Shown here: positions 11,274 to 20,130 of the stretch, piece after piece
How the letters are laid out: each line of letters starts with the position of its first letter
How positions within the stretch are numbered: the first letter of the stretch is position 1
Assembly: GCA_945883235.1 (NCBI GenBank)
Contig: CAMCXF010000004.1
Coordinates: 1-64,000 of the forward strand
Direction: 5' to 3'
DNA from: Phenylobacterium deserti
GTDB taxonomy: Bacteria; Pseudomonadota; Alphaproteobacteria; Caulobacterales; Caulobacteraceae
Length of the DNA: 64,000 nucleotides
The notes under the pieces: generated by a model
Told to the model about the DNA's origin: nothing
The model's input: the letters and a program-made list of their open reading frames with translations, nothing else
Databases searched by the model: none
Translations under genes and position numbers: made by a program

Positions 11274-12482
11274 ATGGCCGATTTCGGCGCGACCGACCTT
11301 GATGCCTTCCGCAAGGATGTGCGCGAGCAACTGCAGGCCATGTACCCCGCCGAACTCAGGCAGACCGACTCGGGTTCCGACCCTGAGGCTGTGTGGGGCG
11401 GCCGCACTTTCACCGGCTCCGGCGACCCGCAAATTATCTGGATGAACCGCATGGCCGCGAAGGGGTGGACCACGCCTACCTGGCCACGGGAGTACGGCGG
11501 CGGCGGGATGACAGCAGACGAGGCCCGAATTTTCGAACAGGAAATGGCTGTCGGCAAGTACCGGCCGCCCGTGCTGGCGTTCGGCATCTGGATGCTGGGC
11601 CCGGTGCTGATGGAGTATGCGACGGAAGCGCAGAAGCAGACCCATTTGCGTCGGATTGTGAACGGGGAGGTTCGCTGGTGCCAAGGCTATTCCGAGCCTG
11701 GCGCGGGCTCGGATCTGGCGGCGCTGGCGACCAGATGCGAGGACAAGGGCGACCAATGGCTTATCAATGGCAGCAAGGTCTGGACCAGTTACGCTGACAA
11801 AGCCGATTGGTGTTTCTGTCTGGTGCGGACCGACGCGACGAAGAAGCATGAGGGCATCTCGTTCGTCCTGATCGATATGGGATCGCCCGGCGTCGATACA
11901 AGGCCGATCCAGTTGATCAGTGGCGAGAGCCCGTTTTGCGAGACATTTTTTACGGATGTAACAATACCAAAGGAGAATCTGGTCGGGCGGGTCAATGGCG
12001 GCTGGGAGATTGCCAAGCGGTTGCTGCAGTACGAGCGGCAGAACATCTCGGCCGGGTTTGGTGAAGGCGGTGGCACGGCGGGTGGCGCGTCGGGCGATCT
12101 GGCCACCATGGCCAGGTCCTATGGTGCCCTGCCTGACGCGGACCTGCGCAAGCGGATCACAACCAACAAGATGGACTTTCAGGCACTGCGCCAGACCATC
12201 AATCGCTCCGCGGCTGAAAGCCGGGCCGGGAACGGGCCGTCTGCAGCAACGTCGATCATCAAATATGCCGCCGCCGAGTTCGCCAAGGAGCGTTCCGAAT
12301 TGATGATCGAAGCTCTGGGGCACCAGGGGCTGGGCTGGGACGGCGAGGGCTATGATCCACCTGAGGTCGGTGCCGTGCGCGGCTGGCTGCGGACCAAGGC
12401 CAATTCTATTGAAGGGGGCACCTCCGAGGTGAACCTCAACGTGATCGCCAAGCGCGTGCTTGGCCTGCCAGACATGAAGTAG
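11274..12482 (+). CDS. Acyl-CoA dehydrogenase, alpha-type large subunit (copy 1 of 5)
   Basis: 402 residues; N-terminal, middle and C-terminal dehydrogenase domains are all present. CQGYSEPGAGSDLAAL at about 136-151 and GSKVWTS at 166-172 form the acyl/flavin site. Glu254 in LLQYER lies where IVD/LCAD-type enzymes place the catalytic base. The usual RxQFG flavin-binding motif is absent, replaced by a DADLRKRI helix; the C-terminus reads SIEGGTSEVNLNVIAKRVLG. This resembles alpha chains of heteromeric dehydrogenases, which need a partner. A GGAG ribosome-binding site precedes the ATG. First gene of the cluster, only 8 bp before copy 2. The substrate is unknown; the larger-than-usual set suggests ring or branched side-chain acyl-CoAs. 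Confidence 0.88.
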   Translation: MADFGATDLDAFRKDVREQLQAMYPAELRQTDSGSDPEAVWGGRTFTGSGDPQIIWMNRMAAKGWTTPTWPREYGGGGMTADEARIFEQEMAVGKYRPPVLAFGIWMLGPVLMEYATEAQKQTHLRRIVNGEVRWCQGYSEPGAGSDLAALATRCEDKGDQWLINGSKVWTSYADKADWCFCLVRTDATKKHEGISFVLIDMGSPGVDTRPIQLISGESPFCETFFTDVTIPKENLVGRVNGGWEIAKRLLQYERQNISAGFGEGGGTAGGASGDLATMARSYGALPDADLRKRITTNKMDFQALRQTINRSAAESRAGNGPSAATSIIKYAAAEFAKERSELMIEALGHQGLGWDGEGYDPPEVGAVRGWLRTKANSIEGGTSEVNLNVIAKRVLGLPDMK

Positions 12483-12490
12483 GAAAAAAG

Positions 12491-13699
12491 ATGGCTGATT
12501 TTGGCGGCGACGTAGAAACCTTCCGGGCCGAGGCCAAGGCCTGGCTTGAGGCCAATTTCCCGAAATCCCTGGCCAAGGACCCTATGGCCCAGATGGCCAA
12601 GCTGCAGGTCCAGCCCGAGAGCGCCGAGGCGCTGGCATGGCGCAGGGCGATGGCCGCCAAGGGTTGGGGCACGCCGGTCTGGCCGACCTCCATCGGCGGC
12701 GGCGGCCTGTCGCGCGATGAGGCCCGCGTGCTGGCCGAAGAGATGGCCAAGGTCGGTGCGCGTAACCCCATCGGCGGCATGGGCGTCTCGATGTTCGGCC
12801 CGACTCTGCTGGAGTACGGCAGCGATGCGCTAAAGAAGGAACACTTCCCCGGCATCGTCAGCGGCGATGTTTGGTGGTGCCAGGGCTATTCCGAGCCCGG
12901 CGCCGGATCGGACCTGGCGTCCCTGCAGACCTGGGCCGAGGATAAGGGCGATCATTTCCTCGTAAATGGTTCAAAAATATGGACTTCTGGCGCTCAGTAC
13001 GCTGACCGCTGCTACTGTCTGGTACGGACAGATCGATCCAAGAAGCATGAGGGCATCAGCTTCCTGCTGATCGACATGAAGGCACCGGGGGTCGAGGTCA
13101 GGCCGATCCTGCTGATCAACGGGACCTCGCCGTTCTGCGAGACGTTCTTTACCGACGTGAAAGTGCCGAAGGACCAGCTGTTCGGGCCGCTGAACGGGGC
13201 CTGGACCATTGCCAAGCGGCTGCTGCAGTTCGAACGCGAGGGGATCGGTGCCAGCCTGGGTGCCGGCAACATCGGTGGCGTCAGCAGCGTGCCCACCGTC
13301 GTCGAGGCGGCCAGGGCCGGTGTGGGCGTCGAGGCAGACGGCACCCTGTCGGACGTGGATCTGCGTCGGCGGATTACCGAGCATCTGATGGAAGCGCGGG
13401 CTTTCCAGTTGACGGTTCGCCGCCAGCAGGACGAGAGCAAGTCCGGTAACGGGCCGTCCAACCTGGCCGCTGCCATGAAATACGCCGGGGCCAAGATCGC
13501 CCATGAGCGCAACGAACTCCTGGTCGAGGGCCTGGGAACTCAAGGGTTGGGATGGTCTGGTGAGGGCTTCGCATCGGGCGAGATTGCCGCCGTTCGCGGC
13601 TGGCTGCGGTCCAAGGCCAACTCGATCGAGGGCGGCAGTTCGGAGATCAATCTGAACGTCGTCTCAAAAAGGGTTCTTGGACTTCCCGATCCGAAGTAG
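12491..13699 (+). CDS. Acyl-CoA dehydrogenase, alpha-type large subunit (copy 2 of 5)
   Basis: 402 residues and collinear with copy 1. YSEPGAGSDLASLQT at about 133-147, GSKIWTSGAQYADRCYC at 160-176, candidate catalytic Glu248 in LLQFER, and a C-terminus SIEGGSSEINLNVVSKRVLG like copy 1 and unlike copies 3-5. It differs from the others in having Arg in place of Trp in the ADxC block (ADRCYC instead of ADWCFC), a possible substrate-pocket change. It follows copy 1 after 8 bp, so these two are surely co-transcribed and may be the older pair. Confidence 0.88.
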   Translation: MADFGGDVETFRAEAKAWLEANFPKSLAKDPMAQMAKLQVQPESAEALAWRRAMAAKGWGTPVWPTSIGGGGLSRDEARVLAEEMAKVGARNPIGGMGVSMFGPTLLEYGSDALKKEHFPGIVSGDVWWCQGYSEPGAGSDLASLQTWAEDKGDHFLVNGSKIWTSGAQYADRCYCLVRTDRSKKHEGISFLLIDMKAPGVEVRPILLINGTSPFCETFFTDVKVPKDQLFGPLNGAWTIAKRLLQFEREGIGASLGAGNIGGVSSVPTVVEAARAGVGVEADGTLSDVDLRRRITEHLMEARAFQLTVRRQQDESKSGNGPSNLAAAMKYAGAKIAHERNELLVEGLGTQGLGWSGEGFASGEIAAVRGWLRSKANSIEGGSSEINLNVVSKRVLGLPDPK

Positions 13700-13745
13700 G
13701 ATTAGAATAAGCGGTATCGAGACCGGATAATTTCAGGAGGATAAG

Positions 13746-14951
13746 ATGGCTGATTTTGGAGGTTCTGACCTCGACGCCTTCCGGGGCGAAGCACGGGACT
13801 GGCTGGAGGCCAACTATCCGCAGTCGCTTCGCGAGGACCCCGAGGCGGGCACGCGCATGATCATGGGCGGCGTGAAACCCACCGGCGACTTCCTGGTGTG
13901 GAAGCAGCGGATGGCCGAGAAGGGCTGGGGCACGCCCACCTGGCCCAAGAAATACGGTGCCGGCGGCCTGACGGGCCCCGAGGCCCGGGTTCTGGGCCAG
14001 GAGATGGACCGGATCGGGGCCTACAATCCGATGATCGGCATGGGCCTGTCGATGTTTGGCCCGACCCTGCTGGAATACGGCACCGAAGAGCAGAAGCAGC
14101 GCCACATCCCGCCGATCGTGAAGGGGGAACTGCGCTGGTGTCAGGGCTATTCCGAGCCCGGCGCCGGATCGGACCTGGCCAGCCTGATGACCAAGTGCGA
14201 AGACGCCGGGGATCACTGGAACATCAACGGTTCAAAAATCTGGACCAGCGGTGCCCAGTACGCTGACTGGTGCTTCTGCCTGGTCCGCACAGACACCACC
14301 AAGAAGCATGAGGGCATAAGTTTTGTGCTCATCAACATGGATCAGAAGGGTGTTGAAACGCGACCGATCAAACTGATCGCCGGGTCCTCGCCGTTCTGCG
14401 AAACCTTCTTCACGGATGCCCGCGCCGAGAAAGACGACATGCTGGGCCCGCTGAACGGTGGCTGGACGGTGGGCAAGCGGCTGCTGCAGCATGAGCGGTC
14501 GGGCCAGGGTGGCTCGCGGATGGCCGGCGGCGGCGGGGTTTCGATCCCGGACCTGGCGAAGCGCTATGTGGGCGTCGACACTCAGGGCCGGCTTGCCGAC
14601 AGCGACCTGCGCACGCGGATCTCGCAGCACCAGATCAACGCCAAGGCCCATGCCTTGACCGTCCTGCGCGCCATGGATGAGGCGAAGGGCAATTCGAACC
14701 CCTCGGCCACCACCTCGGTGATGAAGAACTCCGGCACCTGGATCGGTCAAACCCGGTCCGAACTGATGCTGGAGATCATGGGCCACCAGGGTCTCGGCTG
14801 GACCGGTGAGGCGTTTGACAAGGAAGAGATCGAGACCGTGCGTGCCTGGCTGTCCGGCAAGGCCACCACGATCTTCGGCGGTAGCCAGGAAGTGCAGAGC
14901 AATATCGTGAGCAAGCGCATCCTGGGCCTGCCGGATACGACGCAGGGGTAA
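13746..14951 (+). CDS. Acyl-CoA dehydrogenase, alpha-type large subunit (copy 3 of 5)
   Basis: 401 residues. YSEPGAGSDLASLMT at about 136-150, GSKIWTSGAQYADWCFC, candidate catalytic Glu250 in LLQHER, C-terminus TIFGGSQEVQSNIVSKRILG. It shares the IFGG C-terminal signature with copy 5. No RxQFG motif. An AGGAGGATAAG ribosome-binding site precedes the ATG. It is followed by the first 101-bp repeat copy. Confidence 0.88.
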   Translation: MADFGGSDLDAFRGEARDWLEANYPQSLREDPEAGTRMIMGGVKPTGDFLVWKQRMAEKGWGTPTWPKKYGAGGLTGPEARVLGQEMDRIGAYNPMIGMGLSMFGPTLLEYGTEEQKQRHIPPIVKGELRWCQGYSEPGAGSDLASLMTKCEDAGDHWNINGSKIWTSGAQYADWCFCLVRTDTTKKHEGISFVLINMDQKGVETRPIKLIAGSSPFCETFFTDARAEKDDMLGPLNGGWTVGKRLLQHERSGQGGSRMAGGGGVSIPDLAKRYVGVDTQGRLADSDLRTRISQHQINAKAHALTVLRAMDEAKGNSNPSATTSVMKNSGTWIGQTRSELMLEIMGHQGLGWTGEAFDKEEIETVRAWLSGKATTIFGGSQEVQSNIVSKRILGLPDTTQG

Positions 14952-14974
14952 TTGAGCTGATCACTGTTTTGTCC

Positions 14975-15075
14975 GTCATGGCCGGGCTTGTCCCGGCCAC
15001 CCAGATGCGCCGGGGGCTCCGGATGGGCCTGAGAGGTCGGCGCTTCTGGGTCCCCGGGACAAGCCCGGGGATGAC
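14975..15075. repeat. 101-bp palindromic repeat, copy A
   Basis: Begins GTCATGGCCGGGCTTGTCCC and ends GTCCCCGGGACAAGCCCGGGGATGAC in abbreviated form, so the ends are inverted copies of each other (GTCAT...GGGCTTGTCCC / GGGACAAGCCC...ATGAC). The centre holds CCCAGATGCG and CTTCTGGGT, which pair too. Fills most of the gap between dehydrogenase copies 3 and 4. Confidence 0.92.
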
Positions 15076-15118
15076 GAGCGAAGTGTTGGCGGGCGTTTGA
15101 GCAAGGGAGGAACTAAGG

Positions 15119-16324
15119 ATGCCCGATTTCGGCAATACCCTCGACGCGTTCCGGGCGGATGCGCGCGACTGGCTGGCGGCCAACTTTCCCCCGTCGCTGA
15201 GCGGATCGACCGGCGGCGGTGAGCGGCTGGAGGCGCTGACACCGGAGCGCGACAGTTGGCGCAAGGCCATGGGCGACAAGGGGTGGGGCGTGCCGACCTG
15301 GCCCAGAGCCTATGGCGGCGGCGGGCTCTCCAGCGACGAAGCCAAGGTGCTGGCGCAGGAGATGGCCGCCATCGGGGCCTACAATCCCATCGGCGGCATG
15401 GGCGTGATCATGTTTGGCCCGACGCTGCTGGAGTACGGCACCGAAGTGCAGAAGCAGGAACACATCCCGGCCATCGTGAAGGGCGAGCGGATGTGGTGTC
15501 AGGGGTTCTCTGAACCCGGTGCCGGATCGGACCTGGCGTCGCTGCAAACCAAGGCCGTCGATATGGGCGACCACTATGTCGTGGACGGCAGCAAAATCTG
15601 GACAAGTGGCGCCGACAAGGCCGACTGGTGCTTCTGTCTGGTGCGGACCGACACGTCCAAGAAGCATGAGGGCATCAGCTTCCTGCTGATCGACATGCAG
15701 GGTGGCGGCGTCGAGCCCCGGCCGATCCGGTTGATCAATGACACCGCGCCGTTCTGCGAGACGTTTTTCACCGATGTGAAGGTGCCGAAGGCCAACCTGA
15801 TGGGGCCGCTGAATGGTGGCTGGACCATCGCCAAGCGGCTGTTGCAGCATGAGCGGCAGGGCATTTCGGGGGCTGGCGGCGGCCCCGGCCCCGGGGCCGT
15901 ACCCGGCCCGCCGCTGAAGGATCTTGCCCGGGACTACGTCGGTCTGGGCGATGACGGACGGCTTTCCGACGTCGACCTGCGCCGCCGTATTACCGAGCAC
16001 CTGATGGAGGAGCGCGCGTTCCAGCTGACCGGGCGCCGGGCGGCGGAGGAAAACCGCGGCAACTCCGGCCCCAATGCCGCGTCATCGGTGCTGAAGAACG
16101 TGGGATCCAAGGTTCGCCAGGAACGGGCCGAGCTGTCGGTCGAGGTGCTGGGCCATCAGGGTCTGGGCTGGGACGGCCCGGGGTTCACCGACGACGAGAC
16201 CGGCACCATCAAGGCGATGCTACGCACCAAGAGCGGCACGATTGCCGGCGGCTCGTGGGAAGTGCAGTTGAACATTATCTCCAAGCGGATTCTCGGACTG
16301 CCCGAGGTGACGCAGAGGGGGTAA
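15119..16324 (+). CDS. Acyl-CoA dehydrogenase, alpha-type large subunit (copy 4 of 5)
   Basis: 401 residues, collinear with the other copies. FSEPGAGSDLASLQT, GSKIWTSGADKADWCFC (sharing ADKADWCFC with copy 1), candidate catalytic Glu in LLQHER, followed by a Gly/Pro-rich loop GAGGGPGPGAVPGPP that is peculiar to this copy. The C-terminus reads TIAGGSWEVQLNIISKRILG, with Ala where copies 3 and 5 have Phe and 1-2 have Glu. AGGGAGGAA precedes the ATG. Flanked on both sides by 101-bp repeats. Confidence 0.88.
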   Translation: MPDFGNTLDAFRADARDWLAANFPPSLSGSTGGGERLEALTPERDSWRKAMGDKGWGVPTWPRAYGGGGLSSDEAKVLAQEMAAIGAYNPIGGMGVIMFGPTLLEYGTEVQKQEHIPAIVKGERMWCQGFSEPGAGSDLASLQTKAVDMGDHYVVDGSKIWTSGADKADWCFCLVRTDTSKKHEGISFLLIDMQGGGVEPRPIRLINDTAPFCETFFTDVKVPKANLMGPLNGGWTIAKRLLQHERQGISGAGGGPGPGAVPGPPLKDLARDYVGLGDDGRLSDVDLRRRITEHLMEERAFQLTGRRAAEENRGNSGPNAASSVLKNVGSKVRQERAELSVEVLGHQGLGWDGPGFTDDETGTIKAMLRTKSGTIAGGSWEVQLNIISKRILGLPEVTQRG

Positions 16325-16339
16325 AGCACCATATCTTCC

Positions 16340-16440
16340 GTCATGGCCGGGCTTGTCCCGGCCACCCAGATGCGCAGGGGGCTCCGGATGGGCCTGAGAG
16401 GTCGACGCTTCTGGGTCCCCGGGACGAGCCCGGGGATGAC
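16340..16440. repeat. 101-bp palindromic repeat, copy B
   Basis: Same length and orientation as copy A, differing from it at three positions by direct reading (A for C in the CGCCGGGGG block, A for G in GTCGGCG, G for A in the closing GGGACAAG). Lies between dehydrogenase copies 4 and 5. Confidence 0.92.
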
Positions 16441-16476
16441 GACCTGTAATTTTGATCGGATGAAGGACAAACTGAG

Positions 16477-17679
16477 ATGGCGGATTTTGGCGGAACTGAT
16501 CTTGAGGCGTTCCGGGGCGAGGTACGGTCCTGGGTGGAGGCGAACTTCCCCGCCGCGCTGAAGGGCAAGAACCCGATGCAGGTGGAGGAGCGCAACACGC
16601 CCTCGCCCGACATGGAAACCTGGCGCAAGGCCGTGGGGTCCAAGGGTTGGGGCACGCCCACATGGCCTAAGGAATATGGCGGCGGGGGCATGAGCTCGGC
16701 CGAGGCGCGGGTGATCCAGGGCGAATTCGCCCGGGCCCGGGCCTACAACCCCATCGGCGGCATGGGCGTGATGATGTTCGGCCCGACGCTGCTGGAGTAC
16801 GGGAACGAGGCGCAGAAGCAGGAGCACATCCCGCCGATCTGCCGGGGCGAGATCGCCTGGTGCCAGGGTTTCTCGGAGCCGGGCGCAGGATCGGACCTGG
16901 CCAGTCTTCAGACCAAGGCCGAAGACAAGGGCGACCAGTTCGTCATTAACGGCCAGAAGATCTGGACGAGTGGCGCGCAATGGGCTGACTGGTGCTTCTG
17001 TCTGGTGCGGACGGATACTGCCAAGAAGCACGAAGGTATCTCATTTGTGCTGTTCACGATGCATCAGCCGGGCGTGGAAACCCGCCCGATTCCTCTGATC
17101 GCGGGGTCCTCTCCTTTCTGCGAAGTCTTCCTGACGGACGCCGTGGCCGACAAGAAGAACCTGGTCGGGCCGCTGAACGGTGGCTGGTCCATCGCCAAGC
17201 GGTTGCTGCAGCATGAGCGTTCGGGCCTCACGGGCGCCGGCGGCGGACTGGGCGGCGGCGGCAAGGCCATCGAACAGCTAGCCAAGGAATATGTCGGGGT
17301 CGACGAGGAAGGCCGGATCGCCGACTCAGACCTGCGCACCCGCCTGATCAACAACGTCATGAACATGCGCGCGTTTCAGCAGACCGCTGTGCGCGCCATG
17401 GTCGAGGCCCGGGGAAACTCCAGCCCGTCCAGCGCCACGTCGATCATGAAGAACGCCGGTACGTCGCTGATCCAGGAGCGTCACGAAATGGCGCTGGAGA
17501 TCATGGGCCACCAGGGTCTGGGCTGGGAGGGCGACGACTTCTCGGCCGAGGAACTGGGCGCGGTGCGCGGCTGGCTGTTCGGTAAGGCGTTCACGATCTT
17601 TGGCGGCTCGTCGGAAGTGCAGTCGAATATCGTCTCGAAGCGCATTCTGGGCTTGCCGGACCTTACGCAAAGCAAGTGA
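16477..17679 (+). CDS. Acyl-CoA dehydrogenase, alpha-type large subunit (copy 5 of 5)
   Basis: 400 residues. FSEPGAGSDLASLQT, GQKIWTSGAQWADWCFC, candidate catalytic Glu in LLQHERSG, C-terminus TIFGGSSEVQSNIVSKRILG, closest to copy 3 by these signatures. No RxQFG or QxHGGxG motif. The start at 16477 reads MADFGGTDLEAFRGE, the shared N-terminus of the set. A 237-bp gap with two repeats separates it from the small beta-type partner. Confidence 0.88.
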   Translation: MADFGGTDLEAFRGEVRSWVEANFPAALKGKNPMQVEERNTPSPDMETWRKAVGSKGWGTPTWPKEYGGGGMSSAEARVIQGEFARARAYNPIGGMGVMMFGPTLLEYGNEAQKQEHIPPICRGEIAWCQGFSEPGAGSDLASLQTKAEDKGDQFVINGQKIWTSGAQWADWCFCLVRTDTAKKHEGISFVLFTMHQPGVETRPIPLIAGSSPFCEVFLTDAVADKKNLVGPLNGGWSIAKRLLQHERSGLTGAGGGLGGGGKAIEQLAKEYVGVDEEGRIADSDLRTRLINNVMNMRAFQQTAVRAMVEARGNSSPSSATSIMKNAGTSLIQERHEMALEIMGHQGLGWEGDDFSAEELGAVRGWLFGKAFTIFGGSSEVQSNIVSKRILGLPDLTQSK

Positions 17680-17712
17680 TGGTGGCGTGAGACTTACGCC
17701 TACTTTTTGATC

Positions 17713-17813
17713 GTCATGACCGGGCTTGTCCCGGCCACCCAGATGCGCCGGGGGCTCCGGATGGGCCTGAGAGGTCGGCGCTTCTGGGTCCCCGGGACAA
17801 GCCCGGGGATGAC
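17713..17813. repeat. 101-bp palindromic repeat, copy C
   Basis: Identical in length and orientation to copy A, differing at one position by direct reading (GTCATGACC for GTCATGGCC). Lies between dehydrogenase copy 5 and the small dehydrogenase gene. Confidence 0.92.
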
Positions 17814-17838
17814 GAGAACAAATTGGATTTGATGAAAC

Positions 17839-17886
17839 CGGTCCCGGTTCGGGCGGTCCGCAGAGCGGACCTTGGGCCGGGATGAC
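17839..17886. repeat. Short REP-like hairpin next to copy C
   Basis: Inner perfect 7-bp stem GGTCCGC/GCGGACC with an AGA loop at 17855-17871, flanked by GGTCCCGGTTCGGGC and GGGCCGGGATGAC. It shares the GGGATGAC end with the 101-bp elements but has a different body. It lies 30 bp before the ATG of the next gene. Confidence 0.75.
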
Positions 17887-17916
17887 ACGTAATTTTTGAG
17901 GAAGGAAACAACTACT

Positions 17917-19014
17917 ATGGCCGTTCTGACTGAAGAACAGAGCATGCTGCGCGATGCCGCCAAGAGCTGGGTGCAGGAAAAATCGCCCGTCACCGCGTTT
18001 CGCAAGATGCGCGATAGCGGGGTCGAGCTGGGCTATGACACCGCCGCCTGGAACGAGATGGCGGAAATGGGCTGGGCCGGGGTGATCATCCCCGAGGAAT
18101 ATGGCGGATCGGACTTTGGCTATCTGTCGCTGGGTCTGGTGCTGGAAGAGACCGGCCGGACGCTGACCGCCTCGCCGCTACTGGCCAGCGCGCTGGGCGC
18201 CGCCTCGGCGCTGATCCTGGGCGGCTCTGACGCGCAGAAATCGGCATGGCTGTCGAAGATCGCTGAAGGCACCGCCATCGCGACCCTGGCGGTCGACGAA
18301 GGCCCGCACCACCGTCCGGACAAGGTGGCCACCACGGTCGCCGGCGGCAAGCTTTCGGGCAAGAAGACCTTCGTGCTGGAAGGCATGGCGGCCAATGTGT
18401 TCGTCGTCTCGGCCACGTCGGGCGGGGCCATCGAGCTCTATCTGGTAGCCGCAGACGCGCCGGGCGTGACCCGCACCAAGCTGAGCCTGGCCGACAGCCG
18501 CGGCGCCGCCAACGTGACGTTCGACAACGTGGCTGTCAGCGACGCCGACAAGCTGACCGGCGGCGCGGCCCTGCTGGAAAAGACCCTGGACCGTGCGCGG
18601 GCCGGTATCTCCGCCGAAATGCTGGGCGCGGCCGTGCAGGCCTTCGAGATCACGCTGGACTACCTGAAAACCCGCGTGCAGTTCGGCCAGGTGATCGGCT
18701 CATTCCAGGCCCTGCAACACCGTGCGGCCAAGATGTTCACCGAACTGGAACTGTCACGCTCGGCCGTCGAAGCCGCGCTGACCGCCATCGACACTGACGC
18801 CCCGGACACGCCGGAACTGGTGTCGCTGGCCAAGGCCAAGATGGGCGACACCTTCCATCTGGTGAGCAACGAGATGGTGCAGATGCATGGCGGCATCGGC
18901 ATGACCGACGCCCATGATGCCGGGTTCTATCTGAAGCGCGCCCGCGCGGCGGAAGCGGCGTTTGGCAACCAGGCGTTCCACCGGGACCGGTATGCTCGGA
19001 TCCAGGGGTATTGA
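17917..19014 (+). CDS. Acyl-CoA dehydrogenase, beta-type small subunit
   Basis: 365 residues from the ATG at 17917, chosen because GAGGAAGGA lies 11 bases before it; a TTG seven codons upstream is in frame but would overlap that site. It has RVQFGQVIGSFQALQHRAA near residue 250 and QMHGGIGMTDAHD near 320, the flavin-contacting motifs missing in the five large copies. At the catalytic-base position it has LDRARAG, Asp/Ala in place of Glu-Arg, so it may not be active alone. Sizes of 400 and 365 match known alpha/beta pairs such as mycobacterial ChsE4-ChsE5. It is the last gene before a terminator and may serve all five alpha copies. Confidence 0.88.
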   Translation: MAVLTEEQSMLRDAAKSWVQEKSPVTAFRKMRDSGVELGYDTAAWNEMAEMGWAGVIIPEEYGGSDFGYLSLGLVLEETGRTLTASPLLASALGAASALILGGSDAQKSAWLSKIAEGTAIATLAVDEGPHHRPDKVATTVAGGKLSGKKTFVLEGMAANVFVVSATSGGAIELYLVAADAPGVTRTKLSLADSRGAANVTFDNVAVSDADKLTGGAALLEKTLDRARAGISAEMLGAAVQAFEITLDYLKTRVQFGQVIGSFQALQHRAAKMFTELELSRSAVEAALTAIDTDAPDTPELVSLAKAKMGDTFHLVSNEMVQMHGGIGMTDAHDAGFYLKRARAAEAAFGNQAFHRDRYARIQGY

Positions 19015-19021
19015 TCTTAGC

Positions 19022-19094
19022 GGCCCTCGCGGGGCGAGGGCCGGATAGGTTGTGAGATTGAGAAGCCCCGTTGGTGAGAGCCGGCGGGGTTTTT
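19022..19094 (+). terminator. Terminator of the acyl-CoA dehydrogenase cluster
   Basis: Two hairpins. The first is a perfect stem GGCCCTCGC/GCGAGGGCC at 19022-19042. The second is CCCCGTTGG/CCGGCGGGG at 19066-19089 (nine pairs counting two G-T) followed by TTTTT at 19090-19094, a good rho-independent terminator starting eight bases after the stop codon. Confidence 0.85.
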
Positions 19095-19500: not shown

Positions 19501-20130
19501 ATGCCCTACCCGCGTGGAATCTGGAACCCCGAGCCGCCGATCCCGGAGATGGATCATACCCCTGGCTTCAAGGAGAGTGCGTTCAGCTGGGCGATGGCGC
19601 GCGTGATCCTGTGGCACATTGCCAAGGGGCACACGATGAAGCGGATCACACGGAATCCGAAATTGCCGGCCTATTGCACGGTCTTTCAATGGATGAAGGT
19701 TGTGCCCGAGTTCGGGGAGGCGGTGGCGGAGGCGCGGGCGAAGCTGGCGGCCGCGCGGCTGGCGGCGCGGGATGCGGCCAGGCGGGCCGGGCCACCCCGG
19801 CGGCGGGGCGGGCGCAAGCCGCAGGTGTCGGCCGAGGCGCTGGACGCGTTGCTGACCCGGGTGCGCGAGGGGGCGGCGGTGAGTGAGGCGGTGGCCGCGC
19901 GGGGGGCACCCTCGGCCAAGGCGCTGTACACGCGGGTCAGGGGGTGTCCGGGGTTTCGGGCGGCGTTTGTGGACGCCTGTAACTGGCGGGCTCAGGGGCT
20001 GGGGTTTGAGGCCGAGGATGCGGTGGATTCGTTCCGGACCGTTGGCTACCGGGCGGCGCGGGCGCGGTATGAGGCGCTGGTGGCGCGCAAGGGGCGGCTG
20101 ACGCCCAAGCTGTATCGGAAGATTGCGTAG
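19501..20130 (+). CDS. Orphan terminase-small-subunit-like protein
   Basis: 209 residues, very Arg/Ala-rich. Residues about 35-85 (KGHTMKRITRNPKLPAYCTV then FQWM, VPEFGEAVAEAR) fit the helix-turn-helix DNA-recognition repeat of phage terminase small subunits, and residues about 117-165 (EGAAVSEAVAARGAPSAKAL, then CPGFRAAFVDAC) look like a second degenerate copy. No large terminase, portal or capsid gene is nearby, so it is either a phage remnant or a domesticated DNA-binding protein. GC-rich codon use like its neighbours. Flanked upstream by REP-like repeats. Confidence 0.6.
   Translation: MPYPRGIWNPEPPIPEMDHTPGFKESAFSWAMARVILWHIAKGHTMKRITRNPKLPAYCTVFQWMKVVPEFGEAVAEARAKLAAARLAARDAARRAGPPRRRGGRKPQVSAEALDALLTRVREGAAVSEAVAARGAPSAKALYTRVRGCPGFRAAFVDACNWRAQGLGFEAEDAVDSFRTVGYRAARARYEALVARKGRLTPKLYRKIA

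Follow-up and report, generated by a model that had tools for sequence, protein, structure and literature searches.

In homomeric acyl-CoA dehydrogenases (ACADs), the RxQFG and QxHGGxG motifs contact the ADP side of the flavin adenine dinucleotide (FAD). The passages of PMC11153573 that concern ChsE4-ChsE5 (FadE26-FadE27 of Mycobacterium tuberculosis; 4X28) agree with this division, placing isoalloxazine binding, the catalytic Glu and the substrate in the alpha chain and the contact with the ADP-ribose part of FAD in the beta chain, and those of PMC8399759 describe the heterotetramer as essential, with one FAD at each alpha-beta interface; the bile-acid-specific enzyme of Thermomonospora curvata treated in the latter is presumably Tcur3483-Tcur3481 (6WY8/6WY9). 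The parts of this literature that we drew on present heteromeric ACADs as cognate pairs. Here, we describe a locus of Phenylobacterium deserti at positions 11274 to 19014, on the forward strand, of a 64,000-nucleotide stretch that opens contig CAMCXF010000004.1 (GCA_945883235.1; the window), in which six same-strand ACAD genes comprise five of the alpha type (a1 to a5) and one of the beta type. We consider it fairly probable that this locus forms one unit for an alpha2beta2-type family of heteromeric ACADs whose alpha chains have their beta chain in common, an arrangement of which we recognized no account in our searches of the open-licence PMC literature.

The alpha-type genes are a1 (11274-12482; 402 residues), a2 (12491-13699; 402), a3 (13746-14951; 401), a4 (15119-16324; 401) and a5 (16477-17679; 400), the last adjoining the beta gene (17917-19014), whose 365 residues are counted from an ATG, a longer open reading frame (ORF) call beginning at a TTG at 17896; successive spacers measure 8, 46, 167, 152 and 237 nt. 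An earlier sequence-only reading of the locus had described five collinear proteins of 400 to 402 residues that keep the Glu of LLQxER and are devoid of RxQFG and QxHGGxG, together with a sixth of 365 residues that has both motifs and no such Glu, and our analysis bore this out. The Glu lies at residues 254, 248 and 250 of a1 to a3, as had been stated, and at residues 245 and 247 of a4 and a5; none of the five contains RxQFG or the looser QxxGGxG, and beta carries RVQFGQVIGSFQ and QMHGGIG and lacks both the catalytic Glu and EPxxGSD. All six proteins match the Pfam ACAD domains, the middle domain of beta falling under the Pfam cut-off. The alphas are 52 to 65% identical to one another, which marks them as old copies, and beta is 21% identical to a1. 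When the six genes are compared with those of the related locus L013, third codon positions account for 75 to 82% of the nucleotide differences (52 to 68% for the more distant loci L023 and L026), an excess that points to purifying selection on all six.

The same partition of motifs extends beyond the window. We aligned 266 complete alphas and 101 betas from the window, loci L013 to L094 and outgroup loci L113 to L132; six alphas that were short were excluded, as were 14 further ACADs (scores under 450/300) and loci L001 to L012, which are copies of search matches. The Glu of LLQxER and the EPxxGSD motif were each present in 266/266 alphas and 0/101 betas, and RxQFG was found in none of the alphas and in 99 betas; QxHGGxG likewise occurred in 99 of the 101 betas, the looser QxxGGxG pattern appearing in two of the 266 alphas, and an invariant Glu of the alphas (E341 of a5) aligns with its first Gln. 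In the search of solved structures, a1, which served as the alpha query, had Tcur3483 (6WY9/6WY8; 147.7 bits) as its best relative, followed in third place by 4X28 chain A, and for beta, Tcur3481 (6WY8_A; 116.3 bits) came first, with two other ACADs between it and 4X28 chain D in fourth place. A Foldseek search with a model of a5 and beta returned 4X28_B, 6WY8_B, 4X28_A, 6WY9_A and 6WY8_C in that order, so that alpha chains of both solved heterotetramers led the list and 4X28 chains A and B stood within the top three, with ordinary ACADs close behind; the output carries no ranges, and each half was assigned to a chain from the targets hit. On the strength of the motif split and of the homology to ChsE4-ChsE5 and Tcur3483-Tcur3481, it is well supported that the array genes encode the two chains, alpha and beta, of heteromeric ACADs, as the sequence-only reading had proposed. 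The best NCBIfam models were those of the pimeloyl-CoA dehydrogenase subunits, PimC (TIGR03204) for a1 to a5, at 255.9 to 290.7 bits against a curated cut-off of 623.85, and PimD (TIGR03203) for beta, at 183.7 bits against 652.7; because these cut-offs were missed by so much, pimeloyl-CoA dehydrogenase was rejected as an identity for the array. IpdE2 (NF050027), at 149.3 bits, was likewise under its curated cut-off of 450.

Gene numbers across related genomes bear on whether the beta chain is shared. We surveyed 119 genomes of the family at E<=1e-160 for alpha and E<=1e-120 for beta, scoring 15 or 16 candidates per genome and taking the number of alphas in each genome from the summary table of the search; the beta cut-off was chosen after a gap from 5e-122 to 1e-94 had been seen in the list. 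Alpha and beta were equal in number in all 30 system-bearing genomes of genera g15, g20, g21, g23, g28 and g30 (26 with 1:1 and four with 2:2). In genus g1, four to eight alphas accompanied one beta in 18 of 19 system-bearing genomes; G022 has two betas, and a twentieth genome, G151, has neither gene. Single betas were also found with three to nine alphas in the four genomes of g27 and with one to six in the 12 of g29, and G040 of g11 has three alphas and two betas. In array genomes, only alpha has been amplified, not beta. The two chains occurred together in 66 of the 119 genomes and were both absent from 52; none had beta only, and the one genome that at first had alpha only (G061) contains part of a beta gene where a contig stops, just as a second apparent exception, G002, contains a beta N terminus at its contig end. 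No genome truly without beta was shown among the 67 alpha-bearing genomes of the family. Four genomes (G008, G016, G021 and G151, of which G008 and G021 are 73% and 77% complete) have neither such alphas (E<=1e-100) nor the beta lineage, their best beta-like matches ranging from 1.2e-58 to 5.5e-32. At the level of the order, 15 of 16 genomes carry a single alpha (E<=1e-120) no more than 2 kb from a single close beta (E<=1e-80), and mostly adjacent to it; G029 has neither, and G024 has a second, distant beta.

The genome of P. deserti itself (3.82 Mb in 109 contigs), of which all 38 ACAD-like matches were examined, contains two further alphas of the array clade, unlinked to it (C1:75545-76747 and C34:17646-18809), and thus seven alphas of the clade to one beta of the lineage; no beta was found near either in the 16-kb stretches around them. 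Five other beta-type genes (L095, two in L100, L102 and L103) each adjoin an alpha of their own, that of L103 being cut by the contig start, and all five are distant from the array beta, at 140 to 198 bits against 847 for that of the window. The six weakest ACAD matches yielded no additional beta-type gene, and the hallmark tally for the genome stands at about 16 alphas and six betas, one of the alphas possibly being split over two contigs.

If one beta has to fit several alphas, it is expected to be held back in its evolution relative to them. We compared rates in 30 chosen genomes, 15 with arrays (g1), 11 of g30 and four of g28, with a jackknife over genomes; a4 was present in six of the 15 array genomes, and G005, which has a divergent PurA, was kept and also dropped as a check. 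In the 1:1 genus g30, protein distances were 0.197 for beta, 0.110 for alpha and 0.077 for PurA+RecA, and beta was the more conserved chain in 0/55 pairs, whereas in the 15 array genomes the distances were 0.193 for beta, 0.245, 0.270, 0.334 and 0.239 for a1, a2, a3 and a5, and 0.139 for PurA+RecA, and beta was more conserved than these four alphas in 94, 94, 100 and 75 of 105 pairs, respectively. Relative to PurA+RecA, beta passed from 2.56±0.14 in g30 to 1.39±0.14 in g1 (1.51±0.11 without G005) and alpha from 1.43±0.10 to 1.72-2.52. In a larger set of loci, from which those with two copies of one kind were dropped, beta was more conserved than a1, a2, a3 and a5 in 821, 789, 828 and 588 of the 861 pairs formed by 42 array loci, and it was the more conserved chain in 17, 21 and 19 of 21 pairs for seven loci with just a1, a3, a5 and beta and in one of 92 pairs for 17 1:1 loci. 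This reversal, with beta evolving faster than alpha in 1:1 genera and usually more slowly in arrays, corresponds to what would be expected of a hub subunit and offers indirect evidence that beta may be one.

The array is conserved as a unit. The 80 loci nearest to this beta comprise 43 from Phenylobacterium, 21 from Caulobacteraceae/Caulobacterales and 16 mostly from Alphaproteobacteria/Proteobacteria; the order a1-a2-a3-a5-beta, by best-match labels, occurs in 27 loci and a1-a2-a3-a4-a5-beta in 16, including the window, and each of these has one beta. Shorter versions also occur, some of them cut by contig ends, and a4 is the copy most often absent among relatives; in nine of the 80 loci, beta has no upstream alpha in the stretch covered. 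Two loci, L068 and L086, show a different pair order, with one a3-like alpha about 0.8 kb after beta instead of before it. Recent amplification was rejected as an origin, given the divergence of the copies and the conservation of their orthologue groups. The alpha tree was built by a quick method, and the two unlinked alphas form long branches that make it less sure. In it, the single alphas of other genera of the Caulobacteraceae are for the most part a1-like and branch outside the array copies; among those copies, a1 is the one that most resembles the lone alpha in the majority of the 1:1 genera examined. The beta tree gathers the array betas into one lineage (support, 83/93; 100/98 when the g23 betas are included). 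Nested in the array lineage of both trees is a stand-alone second pair, an a5/a3-like alpha plus beta, found in three loci of other genera (L121, L123 and L127), which may represent lateral transfer of a minimal unit; these genera also retain an a1-like pair of their own. Because of this placement, one beta lineage is met with an a1-like alpha alone and with an a5/a3-like alpha alone, and these two kinds of alpha differ at nearly half of their residues.

Copy-specific features are also maintained. The C-terminal signatures IEGG, IEGG, IFGG, IAGG and IFGG that had been noted for a1 to a5 are correct and are kept within orthologue groups, with IEGG in 71/71 orthologues of a1 and 45/46 of a2, IYGG or IFGG in 60/60 of a3 and 67/67 of a5, and IAGG in 19/19 of a4. 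The ADxC motif, which was also said to differ by copy, does so in the window for a2 alone, with ADRC (as in 21 of 46 a2 orthologues), the other four having ADWC. The proposed substrate diversification finds indirect support in the signatures, and the contribution of ADxC is weaker than had been stated. According to passages of PMC11153573, ChsE4 and LCAD have E-helix prolines that are linked to a large substrate cavity; 246 of the 266 alphas have Pro at the presumed equivalent position (Pro92 of a5), which may hint at bulky substrates.

We suggest that an ancestor with one alpha-beta pair would have duplicated its alpha alone, the copies diverging to give a1, a2, a3, a4 and a5. Each alpha would provide the pocket for the substrate, the catalytic Glu and the part of the FAD site that faces the isoalloxazine, and beta, having lost its own active site, would use its Arg and Gln/Gly motifs to hold the FAD of alpha at the ADP end, so that a single beta could complete the flavin site of several alphas and several specificities could be had from n+1 genes, not 2n. 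The sequence-only reading had raised the possibility that one beta pairs with five alphas. The amplification of alpha only, the failure to find an alpha-bearing genome devoid of beta, the position of the other betas found in the genome beside their own alphas and the rate reversal all favor it, and on these comparisons beta is likely to be common to all five; we infer that each alpha pairs with beta, that the complexes are of the alpha2beta2 form and that the alphas differ in substrate. More tentatively, and with considerable doubt, beta can be seen as a hub for the two unlinked alphas (C1:75545 and C34:17646) as well as for the five of the array, giving mixed alpha-i/alpha-j/beta2 tetramers, with the slowing of beta due to its several partners.

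A number of observations weigh against a common beta. The Glu/RxQFG split is a general feature of the class and is silent on the sharing of beta, and the single alpha of g23 was not found beside its beta (L125, L126 and L130), which makes linkage dispensable for the pair. L096, L098 and L099, which belong to another subfamily, carry the alpha hallmarks and have no beta in the stretch covered, and they imply that some alpha-type chains may work free of beta or share one that is unlinked; L097, on a short contig, belongs to the same subfamily and is likewise without a detected beta. The rate reversal may reflect one single evolutionary change, the pairs being nonindependent, and part of it is accounted for by faster evolution of alphas after duplication. 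Of the seven array pairs that are nearly independent, one (G116-G155) is reversed against all four alphas, and G010-G020 is reversed against a2 by a tiny margin; the second 1:1 genus, g28 (four genomes), gives the same sign as g30 (0/6 pairs), with ratios too noisy to carry weight (2.07±1.24 and 1.16±0.94). In a test for specificity-determining sites (at least 85% conservation within each group and at least three residues among groups), a single column, position 324 of a5, passed the cut-offs, and diversification of specificity is for this reason weakly supported. Structure prediction of alpha-beta pairs, which the sequence-only reading had called for, was carried out on a5 and beta as their native in-frame a5-spacer-beta reading (16477-19011, stops as Gly, with a 67-row alignment drawn from 19/23 in-frame loci and 32/54 listed alpha rows); a1 to a4 are, from their coordinates, out of frame with beta. 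Both halves of this single AlphaFold reading are ACAD-like, and with a pTM of 0.54 and a mean pLDDT of 72.6 it leaves the interface undecided.

A rival view is that beta pairs with a5 alone, or with a5 and a1, and that the remaining alphas have become homo-oligomeric dehydrogenases independent of beta. The stand-alone pairs of an a5/a3-like or an a1-like alpha with beta agree with such restricted partnerships, as do the genes of P. deserti that bear the alpha hallmarks with no beta close by and the alpha variants, among those listed, that retain a G.QG remnant at the QxHGGxG site of beta. We nevertheless regard this view as unlikely, since no alpha in the alignment has RxQFG and the invariant Glu replaces the first Gln of QxHGGxG, since beta was not shown to be missing from any of the 67 alpha-bearing family genomes, and since beta is more conserved than a1, a2, a3 and a5 in most pairs and is thus not tied to a5 only. 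That the extra alphas instead recruit betas encoded elsewhere in the genome is very improbable: five candidates exist, but each stands beside its own alpha and is distant from the array beta, and array-type alphas track this beta lineage across the 119 family genomes, and with every other beta found having an adjacent alpha, the use of other betas by array alphas was rejected. There is slightly more, though still little, to be said for the array as a matter of dosage or redundancy, in which copies of the same specificity are kept for the amount of enzyme; tandem copies in one apparent operon with identical catalytic motifs are what it would predict, but copies this divergent, whose orthologue groups are kept across the genus, each group with its IEGG, I[YF]GG or IAGG signature, speak against it. 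A beta chain common to the alphas of the array is accordingly the reading that we prefer.

The surroundings of the array say little about its substrate. When 123 ORFs of 11 loci were used as queries and families present in at least five loci were counted, the commonest upstream neighbor was a divergent LPG-synthase-like gene (LPG_synthase_C), which has homologues in 40 loci; next came a 623-residue ORF with no Pfam match above the cut-off (29 loci), a Sel1-repeat/peptidoglycan-binding gene (14 loci) and a 611-residue ORF without a Pfam match (13 loci); downstream genes are little conserved, and at 19501-20130 the window encodes a 209-residue protein with a domain like that of the phage Sf6 terminase small subunit. 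The survey revealed no recognized conserved metabolic neighbor, and none of the recurring neighbors was recognized as a steroid degradation gene, so that a steroid substrate, suggested by the comparison with the mycobacterial enzymes, finds no support in the surroundings. In three loci, a same-strand gene of about 975 to 1,000 codons lies between a2 and a3 (L018, 4261-7260; L020, 3019-5955; L022, 1388-4309), and in a scan of L020 alone, it gave a weak match, just under the Pfam cut-off, to the Plug domain of TonB-dependent receptors. The unlinked alpha on C34 (a7; L094, C34:10000-26000) resides in a catabolic-looking cluster with no beta of its own, among neighbors that, from their first residues, resemble a CoA ligase, an enoyl-CoA hydratase, a sulfatase, TonB receptors, a major facilitator superfamily (MFS) transporter and a TetR-like protein. 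The Plug-like gene and the a7 cluster hint at the uptake and breakdown of a substrate from outside the cell.

Within the array, a palindromic repeat of 112 nt, with no strand assigned, occupies the a3/a4 spacer (14967-15078), the a4/a5 spacer (16332-16443; 94% identical to the first copy) and the a5/beta spacer (17705-17816; 97% identical to the first copy). Elsewhere in the genome it has two further matches only (E<=1e-10), at 72 to 73% identity. These repeats could act as partial terminators or mRNA stability elements and thereby determine how much alpha is made relative to beta. Directly 3' of beta on the forward strand (19065-19094), a stem and a T run, read by eye, look like a terminator and suggest that beta is the last gene of the transcription unit; a scan for promoters and terminators gave nothing above shuffled sequences, and this stem was not among its results, the scan having a loop limit of 8.

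If our reading is correct, an array that links one beta to as many as five alphas throughout a genus would mean that the inactive half of a heteromeric dehydrogenase can serve as a common scaffold, a cheap way for such bacteria to widen their range of acyl-CoA substrates, and enzyme design would gain a constant beta platform for the exchange of alphas. Should beta also act as a hub, one cell would obtain a combinatorial repertoire of dehydrogenases with a single beta gene. The reversal of rates between the two chains would provide a testable signature of hub subunits, applicable to other one-to-many enzymes.

Among known systems, PimC/PimD provided the best, if far from sufficient, NCBIfam matches. 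FadE31 of M. tuberculosis reportedly co-purified with FadE32 and FadE33 in the work of Wipperman and coworkers in 2013, a possible precedent for a shared chain, although this trio has no five-copy array. The single alpha-beta pairs of the g28 and g30 Caulobacteraceae are orthologues of the array genes, with alphas that are mostly a1-like and betas 58 to 65% identical, but they differ in their 1:1 or 2:2 gene numbers and in a beta that evolves faster than alpha. ChsE4-ChsE5 resembles the array in having the Glu base and the isoalloxazine side of the flavin site in alpha and the ADP-side contact in beta and differs from it in having one alpha per beta and acting on the cholesterol side chain, whereas here five linked alphas, and seven in all, are found per beta; Tcur3483-Tcur3481, the best solved relatives of a1 and beta, is likewise a single pair. 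The class of heteromeric ACADs is already known, and the arrangement of one beta with many alphas would be the new part.

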